A stretch of DNA of 64,000 bases from Clostridiaceae bacterium. Lineage in GTDB: Bacteria > Bacillota > Clostridia > Lachnospirales > Lachnospiraceae. Below, in pieces: positions 3,001 to 64,000 of this stretch. The DNA lies in NCBI GenBank assembly GCA_910575585.1, contig CAJTGF010000007.1:62001-126000 (forward strand), read 5' to 3'. The notes under the pieces are model-generated. The model saw only the letters and a program-made list of their open reading frames with translations. It did not search any database and was not told the origin of the DNA. The position numbers were made by a program, and so were the translations under genes. How positions within the stretch are numbered: position 1 is the stretch's first letter; every line of letters begins with the position of its first letter.

Positions 3001-6000
3001 AGAGATGCCTGGAAGCGACGAAGAAGAAGGCGGGGACTTGGCCCGGATCTATGTGGAAAATGCGCCCATAAAGTTAAGGATTGAAAAGAAAAAGAGTTCT
3101 GACACCCAGGTGACTTACAAGATAAGCGGACGGCTGGAAGGAAGTCTGGCAGAGATCGGAGGCGATCCTGCATACGAATACGCTTACAGCCAGGGACGGT
3201 ATCTGGGCTATGGATGGAAAAAGGGGACGTTAGAGTATTTAAAGCAGCAAAAGGATGAGGGAGCGCAGGTAGATATCGTATATCACGGAGATATTTTTGC
3301 CGGGTATGGATATGTCACTGTGGACGGACAAAAATGGAAAGAGGACAATCCCTATGTAGCCGGAGCCATGATGACGCTGTATGAAGGGCTGGAGCTAAAG
3401 CCGTCAGGCAACAGGGAAGATCATGGATATGAGGGGCTGGTGGTTGAGCGTAATTTAGCCGGGAATGTGACAAGGATGTATGTCAGGAAAGGGTATGCCG
3501 GGAGCCGAACGGAGTTTCTTAACGTGCAGGCGGATGTAGGAGACCAGACAGAGAAGGCAAAAACCAGGGATATTGTGGAAAGCTGGAAAAGAATTGTGGA
3601 AAAGCGGAAAAAATCTGTGGAAAACCAGGAAGGGCTTGTGGAAAATCCGTCCAAGATCATGGATACTGTGAAAATTACCATGGTAATTTCGGAAAAAACG
3701 GTGGATAACCAGGGGGTAAATGTGGAAAAACCGGAAAAATCTGTTGATAATCCGGGACAGCCTGTGAAAGATCAGGGGGATATTGTGGAAAACCACCTGG
3801 ATATTGTGGATGGAATCTGGGATGCAGAGGCGGTGGAACGCCAGGACACGGATATTTTGTACTATGACCTTGGGGACTTGGACGTATTTGTTCAAAAATC
3901 TGTGGACGGTGTGGTTATGGGATATGGCTACAACATAGACCACAACCTGGTAGAATTGGGGCAGATGGAAGAGGACAGGATCAACTGCGCTCCCACGGAT
4001 AGGGAGGTTTCCGTATTTGCCTTTAAAGGCGGTATGCCTTATCTGGAACTTACCGGAGGAAACTTTACAGAGATGTCCTATGATGCGCGGGATAAATGTT
4101 TTCATTTGCCAAAGGACGCTTTGGTGTACCACATTGACAAGGATGGAAACAGGGACGCTCTGGTAGATGCCCACACCGGAATGGCTTATGTAAAAGATCC
4201 GGTGACCGATACCGTCTATGTGTGGCCCGTGAAAGTGACCAGGGACCGGTTGGGGAGAACGGTGGGAACCGACAAGATCACAACGTCCCGGATCGGGGAG
4301 ACCGGGGAACATAAGGAGGCCGGGTATGTAACAGGCACCTGGAAGCCAAAAGATGACGAACAGAGTCATGAGATGGCCACGGTCATTCAAAATTTAGGAA
4401 AGCAGAATATGGACGGAGAGCCAATCTATCATGACAACAACGGATTTTTTGAAAAATTCATGCGTCCTGTTGTGGATGAACACGGCCTTGCGGTGTATTT
4501 TACGTGCAGCCGAAAGACATACGAAAAGGAGACTTCTCTGTATGACAGGGACGGAGATTTTGTGAGGAAAAAGACCTCGGACCTTTTAGACGACTATGAA
4601 AAGGCTTCCTATGTGGCAGAAGGGTTTCAGAGCTTAAATGATACAAACACTCCCATATACCACAGAGCCGGGGAGAGTTATCTGTTGGAAAATACATGGA
4701 TAACCGGACAGAAAAGCCCCAATGATCCATTTGACAGGGAGATGACAGATGGGCAGGCCGATATTTTGAAACGGGTTCCTGCAGGCGTATATATTATGGA
4801 GGAATTAAAAGCGCCCCAGGGATATGTAAAGGGATTTCCCACAGGCATGACCATAGAAGAAACTGGTCAGATCCAGGTTAAGGCTATGGAAGACGACAGC
4901 ACAAAGATCGTGGTACAGAAGCTGGATAATACGAAAACGTATAGGTATCAGGTGCTGGATATGGATGTGACCGATGCTTCCGGCGCGCATCCCATAATTG
5001 GAACCGTCCAGGAGGGAAAAGGAAGTTTTGGCCACGGCCAGACAGAGGGCGCCAAACTGACTCTTTTTGAGGCAGAACATCAGGGAACCCATGGAGACGG
5101 CGGGGAAAGACGAAAGGCGGTTCTTACATGGGAGTCGAAAAAGGTGCCTCTGTATGCAGAAGGAGTAGGGGCAGGCAGTTATGTGCTGGAGGAGACGGTA
5201 ACGCCTAAAGGTTTTGTCACTGCCGACCCGATGCCGGTGGAAGTAAACAGCTTGGGACAGGCGCAGATCATTTCCATGTTCAATGACCATACGAAGGTGG
5301 AATTTGCCAAGGAAACCATGGAGGATGGACAGCGGAGACTGCTTAATGGAGCCGGTTTTACGCTGTATGAGGCGGTTACGGATGAAAACGGCCAGCCGGT
5401 TTTTCATGACGGCCAGCCAAAATATGACAGAGAGAAACCAGTAGATACCTGGGTCAGCAATGACGCAAGGATCTACAGCGGGTTTGGGGAGGCATTTGAG
5501 GAAATGTACCGGGAGTACGGAACCTCCGGGCAAAGCATCTCGTGGAGCTGGGAGGGCAGGGATTATAAAGCGGAATACGTGTCCCATGAACAGATTGACG
5601 CTTCAGCGGCCAAAGGAGGAGCATCCCGATTTCCCACAACTGCGGACATAAGATTTTGCACCGAAGAAGGACAGATGATCCGCATCGTGGTATACCAGCA
5701 GCAGGAGAACCGACAGGGCAGAGAATTTGTCTTCGAGTATCAATTTGACTATAAAAAACTTCCGGGTATCAGTGACCGAGGGGTTTCCTACCTAACGGCC
5801 CAGGGCATGCGGCGTCTTGATTATCTGCCAGTGGGGAAGCATTTTGTTTTGGTGGAAACCAGCCCGCCGGCAGGTTTTGGGGCGGCAGCGGACAGGCTGA
5901 TCACTGTTGAGGATACGGCTCAGATCCAGAGATACCGGGTGATGAACCACAAAAGCACGCTTTTGATATCGAAAAGCGGGGGAGAAAGGCAGGGTGTTTT

Positions 6001-52077: not shown

Positions 52078-53415
52078 ATGAGCTTTATGGAAACCATGCA
52101 GGCGAAAATGGACGCCACGTTCGTCCCCATCGCTTCAAAACTCAACGGGCAGCGGCATGTGGCCGCAGTGCGTGATGCATTTACCCTGGCATTTCCGCTG
52201 ACCCTGGCAGGCTCCATTATTACGCTGGTTAATTTTGCGGTGCTGTCACCGGACGGGTTTATTGCCAAGATGCTCCATCTGGGGGATTTGGTTCCCAATC
52301 TGGCGGATTATCAGCAGATCTTTACGCCGATTCTTAACGGCACCACAAACATCATGTCAGTACTCATTGTATTTCTTACGGCCTACAAGCTGGCGGAGGC
52401 CAATGAAGGGGACAAGGTTTTGTCTTCCCTGTGCGCCATCGGCACATTTTTTATCATCTACCCAGCCTATGTGGCCAGTGAAGTGGGAAATGCCCTGCCT
52501 ATGACATTTATGGGGGCCCAGGGGCTTTTTGTGGCGTTGATCGTGGGACTGCTTGTGGGAGAACTGATCCCGAAGATGGCGAGGAACAAAAAGCTGTGCA
52601 TCAAAATGCCGGATTCGGTTCCGCCGGCTGTGGCCCAGTCCTTTAACCTGGTAATTCCTATTATCATCGTGTTTGTAGGAGCCACGGTTATCAACTACAT
52701 ACTGGGGTTTGTGGCAGAAGGCGGCATCCAGTATGTGATCTACAACAGCATCCAGACACCGTTCAGATCTCTGGGAGGAAATATTGTTACTATCCTGATC
52801 TTTGTCGTGGCACAGCAGTTTCTGTGGATTCTGGGAATCCATGGGCCAAACACCTTAAGCGCCATCCGTTCCGTGATGTTTGCGGAGCAGGGCGTTGCAA
52901 ACCTGGCGTATTTTGGAACCAGCGGTACGACTCTGGGATGCCCGTTTCCCCTTACCTGGGGCAGCATCAACGACGCGTTCGGCAACACGGGAGGTTCCGG
53001 CGCGACTTTGGGCCTGATCATCGCCATTTTCCTGGTGGCCAGAAAAGACAAGCAGCAGATGACCATCGGCAAGCTGGCTCTGGCTCCCGGCCTCTTCAAT
53101 ATCAATGAGCCGCTTATGTTCGGGCTTCCTATTGTTATGAATCCGATTTACGTGGTTCCCTTTATTTTAGCTCCGGTTTCTGGTAATATAATAGGGTATC
53201 TTTGTACCATGGTGTTTAAGATCATTCCGCCGGTGACGCTTGATATCGGTTGGACCACTCCCGGATTTTTGATACCGTTTCTGGGATCAGGTGGGACCAA
53301 TCCGCTGTCGCTGGTGATCGGTATCCTGTGCGTATGTGTCAGTACCGTCATATACCTTCCGTTTGTCAGCGCGGCGGCGAAAGTAAATATGCGGAATGCA
53401 TCAGAGGAGGAGTAA
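52078..53415 (+). CDS. PTS EIIC, lactose/cellobiose family
   Basis: Membrane channel component of a phosphotransferase uptake system for beta-glucosides. 445 residues, about ten membrane helices; GxxNINEPLMFGLPIVMNP with the EP pair is the sugar-binding signature, and FGTSGTTLGCPF/HGPNTLSAI-type motifs are family typical. No EIIA or EIIB domain is fused and none is encoded in the window, so these must come from elsewhere. ATG at 52078 follows AAGGAGGG. It lies 3 bp before the GH1 gene. Confidence 0.92.
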   Translation: MSFMETMQAKMDATFVPIASKLNGQRHVAAVRDAFTLAFPLTLAGSIITLVNFAVLSPDGFIAKMLHLGDLVPNLADYQQIFTPILNGTTNIMSVLIVFLTAYKLAEANEGDKVLSSLCAIGTFFIIYPAYVASEVGNALPMTFMGAQGLFVALIVGLLVGELIPKMARNKKLCIKMPDSVPPAVAQSFNLVIPIIIVFVGATVINYILGFVAEGGIQYVIYNSIQTPFRSLGGNIVTILIFVVAQQFLWILGIHGPNTLSAIRSVMFAEQGVANLAYFGTSGTTLGCPFPLTWGSINDAFGNTGGSGATLGLIIAIFLVARKDKQQMTIGKLALAPGLFNINEPLMFGLPIVMNPIYVVPFILAPVSGNIIGYLCTMVFKIIPPVTLDIGWTTPGFLIPFLGSGGTNPLSLVIGILCVCVSTVIYLPFVSAAAKVNMRNASEEE

Positions 53416-54849
<1,434 letters not shown>

Positions 54850-54867
54850 CAGGAAGACAGAATATGG

Positions 54868-54899
54868 GGGACGGCCCAGGGGAATATGGCGGCCGTCCC
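54868..54899 (+). terminator. Hairpin after the GH1 gene
   Basis: GGGACGGCC (54868-54876) pairs with GGCCGTCCC (54891-54899). The following stretch is only moderately T-rich, so termination is uncertain. Confidence 0.5.
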
Positions 54900-54915
54900 A
54901 CAAATGGGTTTATTC

Positions 54916-55042
54916 ATGTACTCTCGGAATCTCTCCTGCACCTGCCTTTGTGGATGATTTTCCGTCAGATGCACATAAATTTATGCGCATCTGACAAAAA
55001 ACATCTCATAAAATCAGGCACAAAGAGTCTCCGAGAGTACAT
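54916..55042. repeat. 127-bp nested palindrome before the ROK gene
   Basis: Outer arms ATGTACTCTCGGA (54916-54928) and TCCGAGAGTACAT (55030-55042) are a perfect 13-bp inverted repeat. A middle stem pairs TTTGTG.../CACAAAG and GATTTT/AAAATC. The core at 54964-54995 is a 32-bp palindrome: GTCAGATGC, one mismatch, CATAAATTTATG, GCATCTGAC. It is 27 bp before the ROK start. Either a small palindromic mobile element or a leader RNA of the ROK gene. Confidence 0.6.
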
Positions 55043-55069
55043 AGTCTAAAAGAGGGGGAAAAGACGGTT

Positions 55070-55978
55070 ATGGCGGATATAAAAAAGTGTCTTTGCATTG
55101 ACGTAGGGGGAACGGCGATAAAGCATGGAGTGATTGATTCCGATCTGAATTTAACCCATAAAGGAGAGGTTCCCACATCCTTCGACGGCGTGGACGATTA
55201 TCTGGATGCCCTGGAACAGATCTACAGGCAGACTTTGGACCGGGTGCAGGGAATTGCCATGTCGGTTCCGGGAGTTATTGACAGTGAAAACGGCATCTGC
55301 ATCAGCGGAGGAAACTTAAAGTTCATTGAGAATTTTAATCTGGCAGAAGAACTGGGAAAACGGATGAAGGTTCCGGTGTCGGTTATGAATGACGCTAAGA
55401 GCGCGGCTATGGCGGAGGCCAGATGGGGGGCTTTGGCCGACTGTAAGGACGGTATCGTTATCGTTCTTGGCACAGGGATTGGCGGGGCGCTGATCAAGGA
55501 CGGAAAGGTCCATTTTGGAAAAAGCTTTGCTGCCGGAGAGTTTAGCTTTATTAATTTAAGTGAGAGTATGGATTCTATGGACAGTACCTGGGCAGGACGG
55601 GCGGGAAATCCCAGGCTCCGCGCTTTGGTGGCCAACGCTAAAGGGATTGAAGATCCGGAGTCTATTACGGGTTTTGACGTGTTTCGCTGGGCAGGGGAGG
55701 GGGATCCGCTGGTTCTTATGGCGCTAGAGCAGTTTACCAGGGGTATCGCCCATATGATCATTAACCTGCAGGTGATTTATGACCCGGACAGGTTCGTCAT
55801 CGGAGGAGGCATCAGCAGGCAGCCTCTTTTGCTGAAATATATTCAGAAGAACCTGGATTATTTTTATACCCAGTTTAAATGGCCGGGACAGAAGGCGGAT
55901 GTAGCTACCTGCAAGTTCTTTAATGACGCGAATTTGATCGGGGCTTACAGTTATTATTTGAGCCGGTTTGGAGAGTAA
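55070..55978 (+). CDS. ROK family protein, probable sugar kinase
   Basis: 302 residues. ATP-binding start CIDVGGTAIKHGVID, then VMNDAKSAAMAEARWG (catalytic Asp in ND) and VLGTGIGGALIKDG. The Cys-rich zinc motif found in many ROK kinases and repressors is missing from the expected place, where the sequence reads EFSFINLSESMDSMDSTWAG. No helix-turn-helix, so a kinase, possibly for glucose or a beta-glucoside. ATG at 55070 follows AAAGAGGGGG. It ends the beta-glucoside group; a strong terminator follows. Confidence 0.85.
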   Translation: MADIKKCLCIDVGGTAIKHGVIDSDLNLTHKGEVPTSFDGVDDYLDALEQIYRQTLDRVQGIAMSVPGVIDSENGICISGGNLKFIENFNLAEELGKRMKVPVSVMNDAKSAAMAEARWGALADCKDGIVIVLGTGIGGALIKDGKVHFGKSFAAGEFSFINLSESMDSMDSTWAGRAGNPRLRALVANAKGIEDPESITGFDVFRWAGEGDPLVLMALEQFTRGIAHMIINLQVIYDPDRFVIGGGISRQPLLLKYIQKNLDYFYTQFKWPGQKADVATCKFFNDANLIGAYSYYLSRFGE

Positions 55979-56007: not shown

Positions 56008-56050
56008 GGGGACAGACAGTGGTTTCGCAGTCTGTCCCCTTTATTTTTGT
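56008..56050 (+). terminator. Terminator after the ROK gene
   Basis: GGGGACAGAC (56008-56017) pairs with GTCTGTCCCC (56030-56039), followed by TTTATTTTTG. Separates the beta-glucoside group from the cupin group. Confidence 0.85.
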
Positions 56051-56124: not shown

Positions 56125-56218
56125 CAAAGTTTAGAAAAAGGAAATGCAGAGATACTAAACTTTGTGGAAGTACCGGATAAATAATCGAATATTTAGATAA
56201 TGGAAATAGAAAAATCGA
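56125..56218. promoter_or_regulatory. Operator-like dyad and direct repeats before the cupin cluster
   Basis: CAAAGTTTAG (56125-56134) and CTAAACTTTG (56155-56164) form a perfect dyad, centres 30 bp apart. Downstream, ATCGAATATTTAGAT and ATCGAAATATTTGTAGAT (about 56187 and 56215) are similar direct repeats. All lie upstream of the promoter at 56235, where a LysR-type activator would bind. Confidence 0.5.
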
Positions 56219-56234
56219 AATATTTGTAGATGAA

Positions 56235-56264
56235 TTGACATAATTACCTGATATTTTGTATAAT
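56235..56264 (+). promoter_or_regulatory. Promoter of the cupin cluster
   Basis: TTGACA, 18-bp spacer, TATAAT; both boxes are perfect. 42 bp before the first cupin gene. Confidence 0.7.
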
Positions 56265-56305
56265 TTCACCATCAAAAATAAAATATTTTACAGGAGGATG
56301 TAAAA

Positions 56306-57070
56306 ATGAAACAAATGCAACTGGCTAAGGGCAAGGATGTAACATTTCAATTTGAAAACGGCCTGGCACAGACAGAGATTTTGGCTGGGTGCAGTGAGGA
56401 CTTGAGGATTTTTAGATGTGTCCTGAAAAAAGGCCATGTTTGGAAGCCGGAATTATTCAGTATCACGGACAAGATTCAGTTTTTTGCATTTATTTCAGCA
56501 AGCGGGTATGTACTGACTACGGACCGCTCCTACAATATAGATGACAGGGCTGTTTTCTGTCCTGATTTTGACAAGGATCCTGGTATTGAAATTCATGCCG
56601 GAGCAGAGGACTTGGAATTTTATCGGTATATCGGTGTGATGAATGACTGGGATATCCGGAGATTCAAATTGCAGCACATTGTCCTCCCAAGATTCAGGCT
56701 GTTTAAAGACGGCGTACGCTATACGGAGGGCTTCACAGGAGATGCCGGTTCCAACCTTCGTTCCCATCTGCTTTTGGAAGGAAGGCAGCTTGGAAGATAC
56801 AGTATGGGGTATAATGTAGGAGAGGGCCCGTCTTTTGTGGGAACTCATACACATGATGTAGTAGAACAGTGGTATTTCGTCCTTCAGGATTCCAGCTTTA
56901 CCTATACTGCCGACCAGGGAGATGTGGAGATGGAAGCATATGACGTATCTTATACGGACAGAGGAGTTCCTCATGGAAGCAAGGCACGCGCCGATCAGAA
57001 GATCAACTATTTCTGGGTAGAACTGGCTACGGAGGGATACCCGGAAGTGGCGATTGCTCCGGAAGAATAA
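56306..57070 (+). CDS. Bicupin-like protein 1 of unknown function, intact metal motif
   Basis: 254 residues, two beta-rich halves; the C-terminal half has a canonical cupin metal site: His181, His183 and Glu187 in GTHTHDVVEQWYFV and His223 in RGVPHGS. The N-terminal half lacks such residues. It is a distant paralogue of the two cupins at 58072 and 58830 (shared GG..RIFRC/..RNFRCSLKAG, QLGR, D-W-[ED] and closing YFWVE/YYVWFEH lines). ATG follows CAGGAGGATG. First gene of the cluster; LysR follows after 67 bp. Could be an isomerase, epimerase or dioxygenase; I do not recognise the reaction. Confidence 0.7.
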   Translation: MKQMQLAKGKDVTFQFENGLAQTEILAGCSEDLRIFRCVLKKGHVWKPELFSITDKIQFFAFISASGYVLTTDRSYNIDDRAVFCPDFDKDPGIEIHAGAEDLEFYRYIGVMNDWDIRRFKLQHIVLPRFRLFKDGVRYTEGFTGDAGSNLRSHLLLEGRQLGRYSMGYNVGEGPSFVGTHTHDVVEQWYFVLQDSSFTYTADQGDVEMEAYDVSYTDRGVPHGSKARADQKINYFWVELATEGYPEVAIAPEE

Positions 57071-57137
57071 CATTGAGAAAGGTGGCTGGCTAGGATAATG
57101 ATTGGGATGAAATTACATAGGACAGGAAGGAGGACAT

Positions 57138-58049
57138 ATGGATTTAGAAAGCATCGAGATCTTTTTGGCAGTTGTACGGACGAGAAATGTTTCAAAAGCA
57201 GCCAAGATCCTGTTTATCTCCCAATCTACGGTCAGCTACCGGTTAAGGCTTTTGGAGGAAGAACTGGACTGCAAGCTGGTGGAGCGGGGAAGGGGACAGA
57301 ATCAGACTTGCCTGACAAAAGAGGGGGAGATGTTTTTCCCCATTGCCGAACGTCTAAAAAATATACGGTATGACATTGAGTCGTTTAAAGACATATCCCG
57401 CCATCCTTCAATTAGTATCGGCTGTGTGGAGAGCATGGCAATCTATTTGCTGGATGAATTGAATAATCAGGTGGCAGAGCGCAATAATAAAGTGAAAATG
57501 CATTTTATGATCAATAACAGCGAGAATATTTATGAGATGCTGGAGAACGGACAAGTTGATCTTGCCTATGTGATCGAACCCATAAGACAGAAAAATATAT
57601 CGCTGACTCCCTTATTTACGGAACAGATGGTATTGGTAGCTTCTGACGCTATGAAACTGGAGGGCAGCAGCATCCATCCAAACCAGTTGGATATACGGGA
57701 TGCCTGCCAATTTGACTGGAAAGAACAGAATCTTAACACATGGTTTGAACATTGGTTCAACCCCAAAGAGCTTCCTTATCTGAAGACCAACTCGCCGCCC
57801 TTTGCCTTCAGCTTTATGAAGAGTCATGTATGCTGGTCTGTGGTTCCCCATTCCATGGGCAAAAGGCTGGAGCGGGAGGCTGGAATGAAGCTTTATACCA
57901 TTAAGGAACCGCCCCAGGAACGGATCTGCTATCGGGCGGCATCGAATGGCAGACACACCTTGTATCCGGATGCGATCAAATATTGGGACAGAGAAATGAA
58001 GCGTTTTATTCTCTCAAAGCCGTGGCTGGAGACGGCAAAAGAAAAGTGA
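57138..58049 (+). CDS. LysR family transcriptional regulator
   Basis: 303 residues. N-terminal winged helix-turn-helix (1-60; IEIFLAVVRTRNVSKAAKILFISQSTVSYRLRLLEEELDCKLVER) and a C-terminal effector domain from about residue 88. It is embedded among the cupin genes on the same strand, so is likely both regulator and member of the operon. Candidate site: dyad at 56125-56164. Inducer is presumably the pathway substrate. ATG follows AAGGAGGACAT. Confidence 0.92.
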   Translation: MDLESIEIFLAVVRTRNVSKAAKILFISQSTVSYRLRLLEEELDCKLVERGRGQNQTCLTKEGEMFFPIAERLKNIRYDIESFKDISRHPSISIGCVESMAIYLLDELNNQVAERNNKVKMHFMINNSENIYEMLENGQVDLAYVIEPIRQKNISLTPLFTEQMVLVASDAMKLEGSSIHPNQLDIRDACQFDWKEQNLNTWFEHWFNPKELPYLKTNSPPFAFSFMKSHVCWSVVPHSMGKRLEREAGMKLYTIKEPPQERICYRAASNGRHTLYPDAIKYWDREMKRFILSKPWLETAKEK

Positions 58050-58071
58050 ATGAGAAATCGGAGGTAAAAAG

Positions 58072-58815
58072 ATGGCCATTAAGATAGACAGAAGGAGTTC
58101 TGATATACCCTATGATGAACACGGGTTTGCCATGACAGAACTGCTTCCCGGAACTTATGAAGGAGGGATCCGGAATTTCAGATGCAGTTTAAAGGCAGGG
58201 AGCCAGTACAGCCCCGCGCTGTATAAAGATAAAACGGTTATCCTGTTTTTCGGTATGGGAAGAGGATATGTGATTGATGAAAAGGACGCCTATAATATCG
58301 AAGAATTAAGTTTTTATGTACCGGAATTCGATAAAACTCCATATACGGTCCATGCTGCTGAGGATATGGAATTTGTGTTAAGCGTGGTGGAGATGAACCA
58401 GTGGGATTGGGAAGTTTACAACGCGTCCCATGCAAGGCTGCCGTTTTTCCGCCCTATCAGCAAGTGTTCTGTTTATGACCAGAGCTGCAAAGGGCCGAAA
58501 ACCTCATCCTGGAATGTGCTTCAGGGAAAACAGCTTGGGCGGATCATGATCGGCGCGGTCAGGGCAGTGGGAGACGGCACCAGGGAAAAAGGCCATAAAG
58601 CCGTACATCAGTGGAACTACTGTGTAGGCAATTCGGACTTTAACCTGACCGTGGGAGACGAAACCGTGGGAACCGTTGCCGGCGACTGGAGTTTTGTTCC
58701 GGCGGGAGAGGATCACAGCCTTGTTTCTGAGGAAGGGAAAGAGGCCTATTATGTTTGGTTCGAACATTTTGCAAAAGAAAAAGATTTTATCGTAAAGCCC
58801 GCCCCAAGGCGTTAA
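58072..58815 (+). CDS. Bicupin-like protein 2 of unknown function, altered metal motif
   Basis: 247 residues. Strongly similar to cupin 3 over the whole length (TELLPGTY-x-GGIRN, EDMEFVLSVVEMNQWD, KQLGRIM, GNSDFN, PAG-x-DHSL). In the C-terminal half the HxHx(3)E positions read Lys173, His175 and His179, with His215 kept. Thus one His is replaced by Lys and the usual Glu by His. That fits an altered metal site or none. ATG at 58072 follows GGAGGTAAAAAG. 14 bp before the cupin 3 start. Not recognised as any named enzyme. Confidence 0.7.
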   Translation: MAIKIDRRSSDIPYDEHGFAMTELLPGTYEGGIRNFRCSLKAGSQYSPALYKDKTVILFFGMGRGYVIDEKDAYNIEELSFYVPEFDKTPYTVHAAEDMEFVLSVVEMNQWDWEVYNASHARLPFFRPISKCSVYDQSCKGPKTSSWNVLQGKQLGRIMIGAVRAVGDGTREKGHKAVHQWNYCVGNSDFNLTVGDETVGTVAGDWSFVPAGEDHSLVSEEGKEAYYVWFEHFAKEKDFIVKPAPRR

Positions 58816-58829
58816 AAGGAGATGCGACC

Positions 58830-59597
58830 ATGGAAAAGGTATATGTAGTAAAAAATGAAGATATCAAAGTGGAATATGATGAAAACGGATTTTACATGAC
58901 AGAGCTGCTTCCCGGCACCTACAGCGGAGGCATCCGGAATTATAAATGTTTCCTGAAAGCCGGCTGCGAAGTCAGCCCAAAGTTGCACAAGGACGATACG
59001 GTGATCCTTATGTTCGGCAGGGGAAGAGGGTATGTGAGAACGGCAGAGAAACTTCACAAAATAACGGAAGTTGCTTTCTACGCGCCTGATTTTGACAGGG
59101 TTCCCTATGCGATACATGCCTATGAGGATATGGAGTTTGTGCTGAGCGTGGTGGAAATGAATCAGTGGGATAAGGAATTGTATCAGGAGTGTCATATCCG
59201 GCTTCCCTACTTTACCCTTATCAGCGATGCCGTTATTTATGATCAGGACTGTAAAGGCCCAAACACCTCTTCCTGGTGGATCTTCAGCCCCAAACAGCTG
59301 GGAAGGATCATGCTGGGAGTTGTCAGGGCCGTAGGAGAGGGTACGGTGGAAAAGGGCCATGACAGAGTGGAGCAGTGGAATTATTGTCTGGGCAATTCGG
59401 ATTTTAACATGACTGTGGAGGATGCTCCGGTGGTCAATCATAAGGCCGGTGAGTGGAGCTATATTCCGGCTGGCTTTGACCATTCGCTATTGGCTGACCC
59501 TGGAAAAGAGATCTACTATGTCTGGTATGAGCATTATGTGAGGGAGAAGGATTTCTGTGTCAGTCTGGAACCGGGACAGGAGTGGACGGACGATTAA
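58830..59597 (+). CDS. Bicupin-like protein 3 of unknown function
   Basis: 255 residues from ATG 58830 (MEKVYVVKNEDIKVEYD) behind AAAAGGAGATG; the earlier frame start overlaps cupin 2. Metal-site positions read Lys175, His177, Glu181 (in KGHDRVEQWNYC) and His218 (in PAGFDHSL): one of the two early His is missing, the Glu is kept. Same fold as cupin 2. The two may form a heterodimer. Followed after 28 bp by ABC importer genes. Confidence 0.7.
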   Translation: MEKVYVVKNEDIKVEYDENGFYMTELLPGTYSGGIRNYKCFLKAGCEVSPKLHKDDTVILMFGRGRGYVRTAEKLHKITEVAFYAPDFDRVPYAIHAYEDMEFVLSVVEMNQWDKELYQECHIRLPYFTLISDAVIYDQDCKGPNTSSWWIFSPKQLGRIMLGVVRAVGEGTVEKGHDRVEQWNYCLGNSDFNMTVEDAPVVNHKAGEWSYIPAGFDHSLLADPGKEIYYVWYEHYVREKDFCVSLEPGQEWTDD

Positions 59598-59625
59598 CTT
59601 ATAATACGGAAGGAGGACATCATCC

Positions 59626-60279
59626 ATGGGCAACTTGAAAGTCTTATCTATTTGGGAGCAATACAGCTACTATTATCTGGAAGGAATGTCCGCAACCCTT
59701 AAAATAGCAGTGGTATCTGTACTTACCAGTATTTTGTTCGGAATAATCATTGGTATCCTGCGGCTGTCCAGAAACTGCGTGCTGAAAAATATTTTTGCGT
59801 TTTATGTAAGCTTTATCCGGGGCACGCCCATGCTGATTCAGATTTACATTGTTTATTATTCTCTTTCTTTCAATATGACTATGTTTACTGCTTCGGTGGT
59901 GGCGCTGACAGTAAACGCAAGCGCATATATCGGTGAAACGGTGAGAGGAGGCATTGAATCGGTTGATAAAGGGCAGATGGAAGCGGCCAGGAGTCTTGGG
60001 CTGTCTCACTGGCAGGCGATGCAGGAGATCGTGATCCCCCAGGCCATAAAGAGCATTTTGCCGTCTCTGTGCAACCAGTTTATTATTCTGATAAAAAATA
60101 CGTCCATGATGTCTGTCATCGGCGTCCATGAGCTGATGTATAACTCCAATACCGTGCGGGCCAATACCTACCTGGCATTTGAACCCCTTATCATAGCGGC
60201 GACCATGTATTTTGTGGTGTGCTTTATACTTGAAAAGGGCGTCAATTATCTTGAGAGGAGGCTGAAATACAGTGCTTGA
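59626..60279 (+). CDS. Polar-amino-acid-type ABC importer permease
   Basis: 217 residues, HisM/GlnP family with about five membrane helices. The first helix contains [18 protein letters not shown], the EAA loop reads [29 protein letters not shown], and [13 protein letters not shown] precedes it; all typical. ATG at 59626 follows GGAGGACATC. The stop overlaps the ATPase start by 8 bp. The substrate class is amino acid or a similar small zwitterion; opines and amino sugars also use this family. Confidence 0.92.
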
Positions 60280-60994
60280 CGTAATAAATCTGGAGAAGAG
60301 TTTTGGAAAACTTCATGTTCTTCGGGGAATCAATGTTACCATAAAGAAAGGCGAGGTTGTATGCGTCATCGGTCCCTCCGGCGGAGGCAAGAGTACGTTT
60401 ATCCGCTGCCTTAACCTTTTGGAGAAACCTACAGGAGGCGATATCATTTTCGAAGGGGTATCGCTGATGAATAAAAAAGTAAACCTGGATGAACACAGAA
60501 AAAAGATCGGGATGGTGTTTCAGCACTTTAATTTGTTTGCCAATAAAAATGTTCTTAACAATATAACCCTGGCTCTTATGAAAGTGAAGAAGATGAAGCG
60601 GGAGGAAGCCGACGAAGTGGCCATGAAGATGTTAAAGAGGGTAGGCCTGGAGGAAAAGGCGCGGCAGTTTCCAAGCCAGCTTTCGGGAGGCCAGAAGCAG
60701 AGGGTGGCTATCGCCCGGTCCCTTGCCATGAATCCGGATATTATGCTATTTGATGAGCCTACCAGCGCCCTGGACCCTGAGATGGTGGGGGAGGTGCTAA
60801 GCCTTATGAAAGAATTGGCAAAAGACGGAATGACCATGGTGGTGGTGACCCATGAGATCGGCTTTGCCCGGGAAGTGGCTGACCGGATCTTGTTTCTGGA
60901 TCAGGGGGTTATTTTGGAGGAAAACAGTCCCGATGAGCTTTTGAACCATCCTGTGCATGAGAGAACAAAGGACTTTTTATCTAAGGTTCTTTAA
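60272..60994 (+). CDS. Polar-amino-acid-type ABC importer ATPase
   Basis: 240 residues. Walker [16 protein letters not shown], signature [16 protein letters not shown], Walker [21 protein letters not shown], and the His-switch [13 protein letters not shown]. The GTG start at 60272 follows GAGAGGAGG inside the permease gene, so the two are translationally coupled. GlnQ/HisP type, 240 residues as usual. Confidence 0.93.
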
Positions 60995-61014
60995 TATAAG
61001 AAAGGAGAAGTACT

Positions 61015-61998
61015 ATGAAAAAAAGATGGATCGCAACAGCACTTGCAGCAGTTATGGCAGCAGGCACACTGGCAGGCTGCAGTTCGAAACCGGAGGAGAC
61101 ACAGGCTCCTGCCCAGGTGGAGATGACGGTAGATGCCGGGACTGTCCAGACGGAGGCGCCTTCCGGTACGGAGGCAGAGACAGAAGCACAAGAGTATGGG
61201 CCGATTCTTTCGAAAGCAAAGGAATCAGGGAAACTGGTTGCGGCGATCAACGCGCAGTCTCCGCCGTGGAGGTTCCACAAAATCGTAGACGGGCAGGATA
61301 AACTGTGCGGCTTCGAGATCAGCATGTGCTATGGATTGGCTGATTATGTATCGGAGAAGCTGGGGACCGAGGTGGAAGTTGAAATTAATGATATGACCTT
61401 CCCGGGAGTTCTGGCAGCGCTGCAGGCAGGACAGGTGGATTTTGCCCCGTCGCTGGCAGGCACTGAGGAGAGAAGGCAGAATATGGATTTTTCCATTCCC
61501 TATCACCGCTCCCTCCAGACGATCGTGATCAAGAAGGACAGGGAAAATGAGGATATTTTCGCCCCTGAGAATGGCATGAATGGTGTCAGCACGGCGTCTC
61601 TGCAGGGTTCCTCCACCTCGGTTACTTTTGCGGAGCAGTATCCGGATGCCAACCTGATCGACTATGAGTCAACGCCGGACATTGTGCTGGCAGTGGCCAA
61701 CGGCAAAGTGGATGCAGCCGTTCTTAACGAGAAATATGCCATCCTTATCTGTAAAGCAAACCCGGATCTGATGATTGACTATGATCTGTCCTTTGATATT
61801 CCCGTTGACAGAGATCCCGGCGCATCCATTGCCATTCCCAAGGGCAATGAGGATTTTGTAGAGCTGGTAGATGAGTGGCTCAATACGATCTTATCTGACG
61901 GCACGTTCTCCTCTTACGAGCAGGAAGCAATCGCGCAGTTGGATGATCCGGATCTGCTGGAAGGCTTCAGCTCCAAGAATATTCTGAATCAAAAGTAG
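61015..61998 (+). CDS. ABC importer solute-binding lipoprotein, family 3
   Basis: 327 residues: signal peptide and lipobox LAGCS (Cys21), Glu/Thr-rich linker to about 57, then a family-3 binding domain. Recognisable lines: LCGFEISMCYGLADYVSEKLG, GVLAALQAGQVDFAPSLAGTEERRQNMDFSIPYH (Arg of TERR binds substrate carboxylate in the family) and AVANGKVDAAVLNEKY. In amino-acid receptors the first segment reads GFDVD; here it is GFEIS, so ligand contacts differ. Completes the importer. ATG follows AAAGGAG. Confidence 0.9.
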   Translation: MKKRWIATALAAVMAAGTLAGCSSKPEETQAPAQVEMTVDAGTVQTEAPSGTEAETEAQEYGPILSKAKESGKLVAAINAQSPPWRFHKIVDGQDKLCGFEISMCYGLADYVSEKLGTEVEVEINDMTFPGVLAALQAGQVDFAPSLAGTEERRQNMDFSIPYHRSLQTIVIKKDRENEDIFAPENGMNGVSTASLQGSSTSVTFAEQYPDANLIDYESTPDIVLAVANGKVDAAVLNEKYAILICKANPDLMIDYDLSFDIPVDRDPGASIAIPKGNEDFVELVDEWLNTILSDGTFSSYEQEAIAQLDDPDLLEGFSSKNILNQK

Positions 61999-62019
61999 AT
62001 GCATGCGCTTGTTAAAAGA

Positions 62020-62056
62020 GCTGCCGCAGCAAGCACTTTGCTGCGGCAGCATTTTT
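62020..62056 (+). terminator. Terminator between importer and TIM-barrel genes
   Basis: GCTGCCGCAGCA (62020-62031) pairs perfectly with TGCTGCGGCAGC (62039-62050), followed by ATTTTTAG. Likely partial, since the next genes are 25 bp on with no clear new promoter. Confidence 0.75.
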
Positions 62057-62081
62057 AGGATGGAATACGAAAGGAGCGATT

Positions 62082-62948
62082 ATGGAAACCATAAAGCTAT
62101 CTGATATTGGCAATTCAAATGCCCATTACAGATTTTACACTTTTGAGACATTTCTGAAACACCAGAAACGGCTGGGAGTGAAACGGGTGGATCTGTTTGG
62201 GGCAACACCCCATGTGTGGATTGATGCCTACAGCCAGTCAGGAGGAAAAAAGACCCGGCAGATGATCCAATCTTTCGGACTGACACCCGGCGTGTTTATA
62301 CCGGAATTTTCTTCTATGCGCTATACGCTTGGAAGCGGAGAGGAGTCGCATGCCAAAACACATGAGTATCTGAAATATTGCCTGGAGTTTGCAGCGGAGA
62401 TGGAAACCAGCCAAATGGTAATAACTGCCAACGGCTTTCTTTTGGATATTGAAGAAAAGCAGCGCCGTTTCAGGCTGACAAAAGAACTTGGATATGTGCT
62501 GGATATGGCAGAGCCTTTGGGAATCCGGATCCTTCTGCAGAACCATTACAGCGATCATACGAATATGATACGAACCATAAGGGATATGGATTGGTGTTTA
62601 AAGAGCATGGAGGGAAGGAAGATCGGGGCGGCTTTGGATGTAGCATCTGCTTATGAGGCCGGAGAGGATATTGAGCAGTGGCTTTTGCGTTTTAAGGACA
62701 GACTTGAGTATGTGTGCCTGTCCAACACTAAATTTGACGGCGCCAAATATTATTGGGGGGACGGTTACCTGAATCTGGCTGATCTTGCAGCGCAGCTGAC
62801 CCATGGGGCATATTCGGGCGGCATCGGATGTTTTTATATGGTCCGGGATTATTTGAAAGAGCCCTGGACGGCTGATGAGCGGACCGTGAAAATGCTTGCA
62901 TGGGCGTTTGAAGGCAGGGAGGATGAAAGAGCAAAACATGGGAGGTGA
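62082..62948 (+). CDS. Xylose-isomerase-like TIM-barrel protein, degenerate metal site
   Basis: 288 residues of the sugar phosphate isomerase/epimerase (AP endonuclease 2-like) superfamily, paralogous to the next gene (YTFETFLKHQKRLG and HTFEYFLDAMEELG; WGDG in both). The four metal-ligand positions read Gln153 (usual Glu), Asp186, Cys212 (usual His) and Phe251 (usual Glu), so the usual metal site is not complete. Either metal-free, or a non-catalytic partner of the next protein. ATG at 62082 follows AAAGGAGCG. Confidence 0.75.
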   Translation: METIKLSDIGNSNAHYRFYTFETFLKHQKRLGVKRVDLFGATPHVWIDAYSQSGGKKTRQMIQSFGLTPGVFIPEFSSMRYTLGSGEESHAKTHEYLKYCLEFAAEMETSQMVITANGFLLDIEEKQRRFRLTKELGYVLDMAEPLGIRILLQNHYSDHTNMIRTIRDMDWCLKSMEGRKIGAALDVASAYEAGEDIEQWLLRFKDRLEYVCLSNTKFDGAKYYWGDGYLNLADLAAQLTHGAYSGGIGCFYMVRDYLKEPWTADERTVKMLAWAFEGREDERAKHGR

Positions 62949-62952
62949 GATT

Positions 62953-63780
62953 TTGAAGGGGAAGATAAAGCGGAAACAGATTGCGGGGATGAATCTGATC
63001 TATAAATGGCATACATTTGAATATTTTCTGGATGCCATGGAGGAGTTGGGCTTTGAAAGTATTTTTTTGTGGGGCGGCCCTCCCCATTTTGACTGCGATT
63101 ATCTGTCGTATCCAAAGTGCGGCCGCGTCCAAAAAGCTGTCCGGCATCATGGCCTTGAAATTACAGGATTTCTGGTAACAGGCTCCAACTACCGGTATCA
63201 GATTGCCACGGAGGAGCCGGATCAGAGAGAGCACGTTTTTAACTACTTTCGGAACGGCATTCTGGCCTGTGAGGAATTAGGAAGCCCATGTATTTCCATG
63301 AATTCCGGCTGGGGATACCAGGACCATGACAGAGAAGAGGCCTTTAAGCGCTCCCGGGATATGATCAGCCGGCTCTGTGAAGAGGCCGGGAAACACCATG
63401 TCCGGATCGTCTTGGAAAGCCTGAAGTCCTGCGAGACAAACCTGGTAGTTACCATGGAGGATATGAAGCGGATGGAGCGGGAGGTCAATCATCCGGCGTT
63501 TTCCATTATGGCGGATACGGGAGCCATTGGATATAACAAAGAACGTCTGGAGGACTGGTTTGACTGTTTCGGAAAACAGATCCGATCCATTCATTTTGTA
63601 GACGGGATGCATCTGACATGGGGAGACGGAAAATCCGGCCTGGATGACATGATAAAATCCATAATAACGCATGAATATCAGGGATGTCTGGCTCTGGAAA
63701 CTTCCGGGTCAGCATATCTGCCTGATCCAATAGAAGCTGACAGGAAGGCGATGAGGATTCTAAGCCCGTTCTTAGAATAA
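62953..63780 (+). CDS. Xylose-isomerase-like TIM-barrel protein, intact metal site
   Basis: 275 residues from TTG 62953 (next to GGGAGGTGAG, aligning with the paralogue's start); an ATG at 62938 is possible but has no site. Metal ligands are all present: Glu155 in VLESL, Asp188 in ADTGAI, His214 in IHFVDG and Glu249 in ALETSG. The fold suggests isomerisation or epimerisation of a sugar or keto-sugar, or ring opening. Begins 4 bp after the previous gene. Reaction unknown. Confidence 0.8.
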   Translation: MKGKIKRKQIAGMNLIYKWHTFEYFLDAMEELGFESIFLWGGPPHFDCDYLSYPKCGRVQKAVRHHGLEITGFLVTGSNYRYQIATEEPDQREHVFNYFRNGILACEELGSPCISMNSGWGYQDHDREEAFKRSRDMISRLCEEAGKHHVRIVLESLKSCETNLVVTMEDMKRMEREVNHPAFSIMADTGAIGYNKERLEDWFDCFGKQIRSIHFVDGMHLTWGDGKSGLDDMIKSIITHEYQGCLALETSGSAYLPDPIEADRKAMRILSPFLE

Positions 63781-63785
63781 AACAT

Positions 63786-64000
63786 ATGAGTGAACCCTTA
63801 TTTTCCAAAAAACAGATTTATAATATGGTGATTCCGCTGATCATGGAACAGGTGTTTATGGCGGCTATCGGAATGTTTGATGTGATCATGGTAAGCGGTC
63901 TGGGAGAGCATTCGATTTCAGCCGTATCCCTTGTGGATTTTATTAATCAGCTGATCAACAGCGTTCTGACAGCCCTGTCTACAGGAGGGGCCATTGTCTG
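63786..64000 (+). CDS. MATE family efflux protein, 5' part (runs off the window)
   Basis: The ATG at 63786 opens a frame to the end of the window (71 complete codons). MSEPLFSKKQIYNMVIPLIMEQ, then VFMAAIGMFDVIMVSGLGEH and STGGAIV match the first two membrane helices of MATE exporters. It begins 5 bp after the TIM-barrel gene, so it is probably in the same operon and may export a product. Confidence 0.8.
   Translation, partial: MSEPLFSKKQIYNMVIPLIMEQVFMAAIGMFDVIMVSGLGEHSISAVSLVDFINQLINSVLTALSTGGAIV

Follow-up and report, generated by a model that had tools for sequence, protein, structure and literature searches.

Introduction

Ring opening of uronates by a cupin is known from KdgF, for which the source gives a metal site with one Gln in the text and Glu56 in the legend, and, in BeKdgF, the catalytic residues Asp102, Phe104 and Arg108, which lie 12, 14 and 18 positions after the last His (PMC11381880). 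KduI/DhuI clusters are treated in a further paper, the accessible part of which does not describe the cluster considered here (PMC12838403). A cupin of unsettled role also belongs to a sugar operon of gut Firmicutes, namely SftX (DUF4867) of sulfoglycolysis, for which ring opening is presented as proposed and not as demonstrated (PMC11968277). Here we describe a gene cluster at the end of a 64,000-nucleotide stretch of DNA, hereafter the window (G000:C7:62001-126000, from an assembly of 6.13 Mb that comprises 253 contigs). Nine complete plus-strand genes at 56306-63780 encode three bicupins (CUP1, CUP2 and CUP3), a LysR-type regulator, the permease, ATPase and family-3 binding protein of an ATP-binding cassette (ABC) importer, and two triosephosphate isomerase (TIM) barrels; a gene for a MATE transporter follows.

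The cluster, from a gut-type Clostridia genome, is a conserved operon without a name that probably imports and degrades an acidic sugar. By the criteria compared below it belongs neither to the Frl nor to the KdgF nor to the classical hexuronate systems, but it has the appearance of an operon for sugar-acid catabolism; from the SftX cupins it differs both in protein family and in sugar. Judging by titles and the openings of abstracts, in a search that most subscription papers lay outside, we found no paper describing this gene set, and no characterised member of the bicupin family was found. That family recurs as the core of apparent sugar-acid clusters with varied importers in Clostridia, and its reaction, once known, would name a missing step in the bacterial use of uronates or related dietary compounds.

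A conserved cluster with bicupins at its core

The preliminary description of this DNA reported nine closely packed plus-strand genes and assigned the LysR, ABC, TIM-barrel and MATE families, and both statements are borne out, the former by gene coordinates (intergenic gaps of 5-83 bases, plus two short overlaps) and the latter by matches in family libraries. In a congener (locus L044) all ten genes are present in identical order at 77-97% identity, which argues that the cluster is more than a chance arrangement. It ends with the MATE gene, since the first gene downstream is that for prolyl-tRNA synthetase. Rather than being scattered in relatives, an outcome that the preliminary description had allowed for, the genes recur as a module across loci.

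We counted features within 9 kb of a bicupin in 33 loci; these were found through their bicupins, so that the choice itself bears on the recurrence, and the genome draws overlap and contain the window's own genome. A MATE transporter lies near a bicupin in 23 loci, a family-1-type sugar binding protein in 22 and a xylose-isomerase-like TIM barrel in 18, while family-3 permeases and family-3 binding proteins are each found in seven, GH28 and GH88 each in five, and a DctM-like protein in four. The MATE figure joins at least two subgroups, of which the window's was seen in L012, L044, L046, L055 and L057, and it stands against a background of 66 MatE domain matches in the window's genome. In the sole control, 20 bicupin-free TIM loci drawn from the better rows (20 of 36 genomes without a bicupin match), MATE was present in three, whole stretches rather than 9 kb being counted.

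Four loci (the window, L044, L050 and L079) unite a family-3 importer, a TIM pair and bicupins, the TIM2 genes of L050 and L012 and the permease of L079 having been recovered by tblastn. L049 and L082 were not counted as window-like, as they have a family-3 ABC importer nearby together with a sugar ABC importer and no TIM barrel. In L012 the window-type TIM1-TIM2-MATE series stands behind a family-1 sugar ABC importer and three bicupins of the subtype of CUP2 and CUP3, and we conclude from this that importers vary around one core.

The company that the bicupins keep favours sugar acids, with GH28 and GH88 in five loci and hexuronate genes in L079. In L046, L055, L057, L076 and L083 one bicupin of the CUP1 subtype lies between two family-1 binding proteins, accompanied by GH88, two permeases, GH28, a TIM barrel and MATE. 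L079, the most informative locus, carries on one strand genes for LacI, UxaC (the only UxaC found in that genome), an ATPase, two bicupins of the CUP1 subtype, a TIM pair, a family-3 binding protein, a permease, UxuA, UxuB, 2-keto-3-deoxy-6-phosphogluconate aldolase and a protein like 2-keto-3-deoxygluconate (KDG) kinase, a set that resembles classical hexuronate catabolism (UxaC-UxuB-UxuA-KdgK-Eda). The classical route, however, has no bicupins, TIM pair or MATE transporter, and UxaC, UxuA and UxuB were not found in the window stretches. In L075 successive genes encode a divergent member of the GH88 family, a 2-hydroxyacid dehydrogenase, a TIM barrel and a bicupin.

From this context we propose, with somewhat less than even confidence, that the operon serves the uptake and degradation of a uronate-type acidic sugar. 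The LysR protein would sense the substrate or an intermediate, and the family-3 importer would admit a small carboxylated sugar, which the bicupins would open or isomerise at the metal site of their C-terminal barrel, with work split between CUP1 on the one hand and CUP2 and CUP3 on the other. The keto acid so formed would be epimerised by TIM2, to which TIM1 would be a partner without catalytic activity, and the product would enter an ordinary hexuronate route whose genes lie elsewhere in the genome; MATE might export a by-product or take part in exchange. Contig C3 of the window's genome carries UxaC, with a gene of the altronate/galactarate dehydratase type nearby.

The bicupins

That the three cupins are bicupins, as first described, holds in part: the predicted model of CUP2 (mean predicted local distance difference test score, pLDDT, 92.4) aligns with bicupins over its full length, but the Pfam matches of CUP1 and CUP2 to Cupin_2 both lie below the cut-off, and CUP3 had no match in the Pfam scan (searches with CUP3 used the reading from 58827, one residue longer than that from the ATG at 58830). 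The bicupins, which are rare among the genomes searched, reached no curated family cut-off in the libraries used, and searches of the PDB with single sequences and two profiles returned scattered weak cupin matches and no close solved structure. The preliminary description knew of no named pathway with this gene set, and this is supported by the cupins and TIM barrels, which reach no curated NCBIfam cut-off.

We aligned 59 bicupin rows, of which one, from L072, is truncated; the overlapping stretch L073 has two further bicupins that were excluded from the counts. The motif HxHx4Q...H is retained in all 18 proteins of the HxH subtype, to which CUP1 belongs. Among the rows without HxH, which include CUP2 and CUP3 (KGH subtype), the His, Gln and last His are retained in 39 of 40, and the third bicupin row of L053 lacks the usual metal-site residues.

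Two cupin families invite comparison. By sequence, CUP1 (residues 181, 183, 188 and 223) and all 18 HxH rows share with KdgF the three His and the one Gln that make up the metal site, similarly spaced, although CUP2 and CUP3 lack the first His. The Asp, Phe and Arg that are catalytic in KdgF were not found at KdgF spacing in the window's proteins, where all three bicupins have Tyr and Trp in the first two of these positions and CUP1, CUP2 and CUP3 have Ala, Phe and Tyr, respectively, in the third, as judged by spacing and not by superposition; over the 59 rows, Tyr occupies position +12 after the last His in 58 and Trp position +14 in 56. Full membership of the bicupins in the KdgF family was rejected because of the missing triad. 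KdgF, moreover, is a small single cupin, and it was not among the matches of the profile searches of the PDB. Nor was it among the 50 rows listed for the structural comparison of the CUP2 model, an absence that carries no weight.

The (S)-ureidoglycine aminohydrolases, or AllE-type proteins (4e2q, 1rc6, 1sfn and 1sef), have in common with the CUP2 model a predicted bicupin fold, and among them 1sfn was the top profile match (E 0.072). The window's family is, however, only 9-11% identical to them and its genomic context is one of sugar uptake. The metal ligands of the aminohydrolase are Glu, His, His and Gln; compared with these by sequence and without superposition, CUP2 has E-x2-H-x3-H and a His as its last conserved residue.

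A distant bicupin in L071 (7155-10239) adjoins a protein that resembles pyruvate formate-lyase and contains a glycyl radical domain.

The paired TIM barrels

The preliminary description envisaged processing by isomerase-fold enzymes, which fits TIM2 better than TIM1. TIM2 keeps the residues Glu159, Asp192, His218 and Glu253 (numbered from 62941 and not from the ATG at 62938), an E-D-H-E metal site of the ketose 3-epimerase type. The aligned residues of TIM1 are Gln, Asp, Cys and Phe, so that three of the four ligands are lost and TIM1, on its sequence, is probably a pseudoenzyme. An intact TIM barrel adjoins a copy with at least two of the four ligands changed in six loci (the window, L044, L012, L050, L053 and L079), and this recurring pair of an active and a degenerate epimerase offers a clear case in which to test the idea of a pseudoenzyme subunit in sugar metabolism. 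Some loci without bicupins, such as L096, L097 and L106, have degenerate partners too, while both metal sites are intact in the pairs of L089 and L104. In L080 (10630-12672), a relative of the window's cluster, the ATPase and the second TIM barrel were seen only as fragments.

The predicted model of TIM2 (13 rows, pLDDT 90.7) matches ketose 3-epimerases, TM_0416 and YcjR. For both TIM barrels the top NCBIfam match is FrlC, at 83.9 bits for TIM2 and 71.5 bits for TIM1, each far below the cut-off of 305 bits for the FrlC equivalog NF007360. TIM2 differs from FrlC and from the ketose 3-epimerases (psicose/tagatose epimerases, TM_0416) in that it adjoins a degenerate copy and that no FrlB- or FrlD-like gene was found with it. 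PF01261 has five matches in the window's 6.1 Mb genome, two of them inside the cluster, and the TIM family is present in 41 of 397 genomes of the family draw (E 1e-45). In a midpoint-rooted FastTree tree that left out the TIM barrels of the GH28 loci, and whose support values were uninspected, the TIM2 proteins from seven of the bicupin loci group together, beside a group from bicupin-free loci (L087-L098), and that of an eighth, L072, is placed elsewhere.

The TIM barrels also suggested a C-glycoside deglycosidase cluster. An oxidoreductase and a DgpB-like gene are features of such clusters, and the window's operon has neither, so this candidate was rejected. No occurrence of the word 'cupin' was listed for a paper on C-glycoside enzymes (PMC8563793).

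L094 (7791-11257) has a tandem of four TIM barrels, the last with an altered metal ligand.

The importer and its ligand

The importer is of the amino-acid type, with SBP_bac_3 at 80.3 bits and the HEQRo-type permease family TIGR01726 at 79.5 bits, both above cut-off; the best match of the ATPase is GlnQ, at 310.9 bits under a cut-off of 379. The binding protein can be aligned with solved amino-acid-binding proteins along some 230 residues. In these the Arg of T-x-E-R holds the carboxylate and an Asp or Glu the amino group of the ligand. The binding proteins of the window and L044 retain this Arg; the acid, which is Asp or Glu in each of the three solved proteins used for comparison, is replaced in them by Asn, and so they lack the pair of alpha-amino-acid-binding proteins. 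The simplest reading of these residues is that the window's ligand would be carboxylated and without an alpha-amino group. Of the two ligand types first suggested for this receptor, zwitterionic or carboxylated, the former is thus weakened and the latter agrees with the retained Arg. The ligands then listed for screening did not include uronates, which the relatives favour; Amadori compounds were on that list, and the TIM barrels do have Amadori-type cousins.

Objections and alternative routes

A number of observations weigh against a uronate-type substrate or against the steps proposed for it. The window's operon contains no glycoside hydrolase and no uronate gene, and among the 36 stretches around bicupins UxaC/UxuA/UxuB occur in one and close GH28/GH88 in five. 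The presence of UxaC in a genome says little, because a search of 23 genomes detected it in 22, nine of them without a bicupin match. The amino-binding acid is kept in the binding proteins of L079, L056, L049 and L082, and that of L050 has lost both Arg and acid. PfkB-type kinases of a kind other than FrlD lie in the stretches of L057, L074 and L079, and the window's operon is closely preceded by a ROK gene, so that a kinase step is possible. Outside bicupin loci, the proteins closest to TIM2 are of Amadori type. Moreover, the bicupin family may have several substrates: L072 (9056-18999) and L073 combine bicupins with a TIM2-like gene, a tripartite ATP-independent periplasmic (TRAP) transporter, HyuA/HyuB and a LysR gene seemingly split in two frames; L107 (5539-12203, a Subdoligranulum record deposited as a plasmid) has a bicupin, a sulfatase, two GFO/IDH/MocA oxidoreductases and a TIM barrel; one locus has a peptide-type (family 5) importer; and the pyruvate-formate-lyase-like neighbour noted above is a further case.

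The alternative that we consider unlikely, yet to be taken seriously, is an Amadori-type route, in which the importer takes in a fructosamine-like conjugate of sugar and amino acid, the TIM pair behaves as FrlC does and the bicupins perform the cleavage. FrlC is indeed the top match of both TIM barrels, cousins of TIM2 adjoin FrlD/FrlB-like genes, and L089 unites two TIM barrels, MATE, a family-3 ABC importer (such genes occur in L088 also) and FrlB/FrlD-like genes. Both bit scores are nevertheless far under the FrlC cut-off, the L089 barrels both keep their metal site, unlike the window's pair, the amino-binding acid is replaced in the window's binding protein, and the relatives carry GH28/GH88 and uronate genes. 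With L089 proteins as queries (tblastn, E 1e-6), no FrlB- or FrlD-like gene was found in any of the 36 stretches around 35 bicupin loci, while the 20 bicupin-free TIM loci have FrlB-like genes in 14 and FrlD-like genes in 13, these names coming from scanned representatives, none of which reached a curated cut-off. The cluster thus differs from Frl-type Amadori operons in having bicupins where kinase and deglycase were not found, and this points to a sugar whose metabolism involves no phosphorylation and deglycation of the FrlD/FrlB type. Uncharacterised clusters with FrlB/FrlD-like genes and a FrlC-like TIM barrel were seen in L087-L093 and L097, variously with Amidohydro_2, YjbQ, Amidohydro_3, a YfcC-type carrier, BtpA and an FGGY kinase.

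A bolder and improbable proposal would join the uronate genes beside bicupins with the Amadori genes beside the sister TIM barrels: a phosphate-independent pathway for acidic sugar conjugates, for example an Amadori-type compound formed from a uronic acid with an amino acid, in which bicupins replace kinase and deglycase, the TIM barrels form a heteromer whose one epimerase is active and the other dead, and hexuronate is released for UxaC. The FrlD/FrlB route would be unworkable on such a conjugate because its carboxylate sits where FrlD would phosphorylate. It is also improbable that the bicupins handle 4,5-unsaturated uronates as functional replacements of KdgF/KduI, leading to KDG; the resemblance of their metal site to that of KdgF and the GH88 genes bear on this, as does the missing KdgF triad. 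Quite unlikely, finally, is a route by which an oxidoreductase encoded elsewhere makes a 3-keto sugar, a YcjR-like TIM2 acts on it and the bicupins eliminate the aglycone. The TIM2 model does match YcjR, but none of the nine window genes encodes an oxidoreductase and just one such locus was seen.

Promoter, hairpin and flanking genes

The features of the cluster are collected in Table 1. The preliminary description placed all nine genes behind one consensus promoter and an operator-like dyad. The promoter is there, its sigma-70 match scoring 12/12, yet a hairpin splits the binding protein gene from TIM1 and may cause the TIM and MATE genes to be expressed less strongly than that of the binding protein. 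The dyad was not confirmed; instead a near-direct repeat, AATCGAATATTT / AATCGAAATATTT, lies upstream of the promoter and is partly conserved in L044. The repeat is a candidate site for LysR, whose role we infer. Across the -10 box 26 bases are identical between the window and L044, in which the -35 box is weaker. The counterpart hairpin region of L044 lies at 5670-5805, where an insertion adjoins the hairpin.

Table 1. Features of the bicupin cluster, in window coordinates
Feature	Coordinates	Strand	Basis or remark
Promoter region, TTGACA-18-TATAAT at 56235-56264, with AT-rich near-direct repeat upstream	56150..56305	+	Candidate LysR site
CUP1, bicupin, HxH subtype	56306..57070	+	His181, His183, Gln188 and His223 in C-terminal domain
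LysR-type regulator	57138..58049	+	Family library match
CUP2, bicupin, KGH subtype (HxH without first His)	58072..58815	+	Alignment, predicted model
CUP3, bicupin, KGH subtype	58830..59597	+	ATG at 58830
Permease, amino-acid-type ABC importer	59626..60279	+	Family library match
ATPase, amino-acid-type ABC importer	60272..60994	+	Family library match
Family-3 solute-binding lipoprotein	61015..61998	+	Arg retained, Asn in place of amino-binding acid
Terminator-like hairpin, 14 pairs, between binding protein and TIM1	62020..62050	+	30/31 bases conserved in L044
TIM1, xylose-isomerase-like barrel	62082..62948	+	Degenerate metal site Q-D-C-F
TIM2, ketose-3-epimerase-type barrel	62938..63780	+	ATG start; metal site E-D-H-E
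MATE transporter, 5' part	63786..64000	+	ATG at 63786; gene ends 1,189 bases past window

Upstream of the cluster, at 52078-55978, lie genes for a phosphotransferase system EIIC protein, GH1 and ROK, which probably form a group of their own, for beta-glucosides. Behind the ROK gene, near 56008-56049, a hairpin with T residues on its 3' side could be read by eye.

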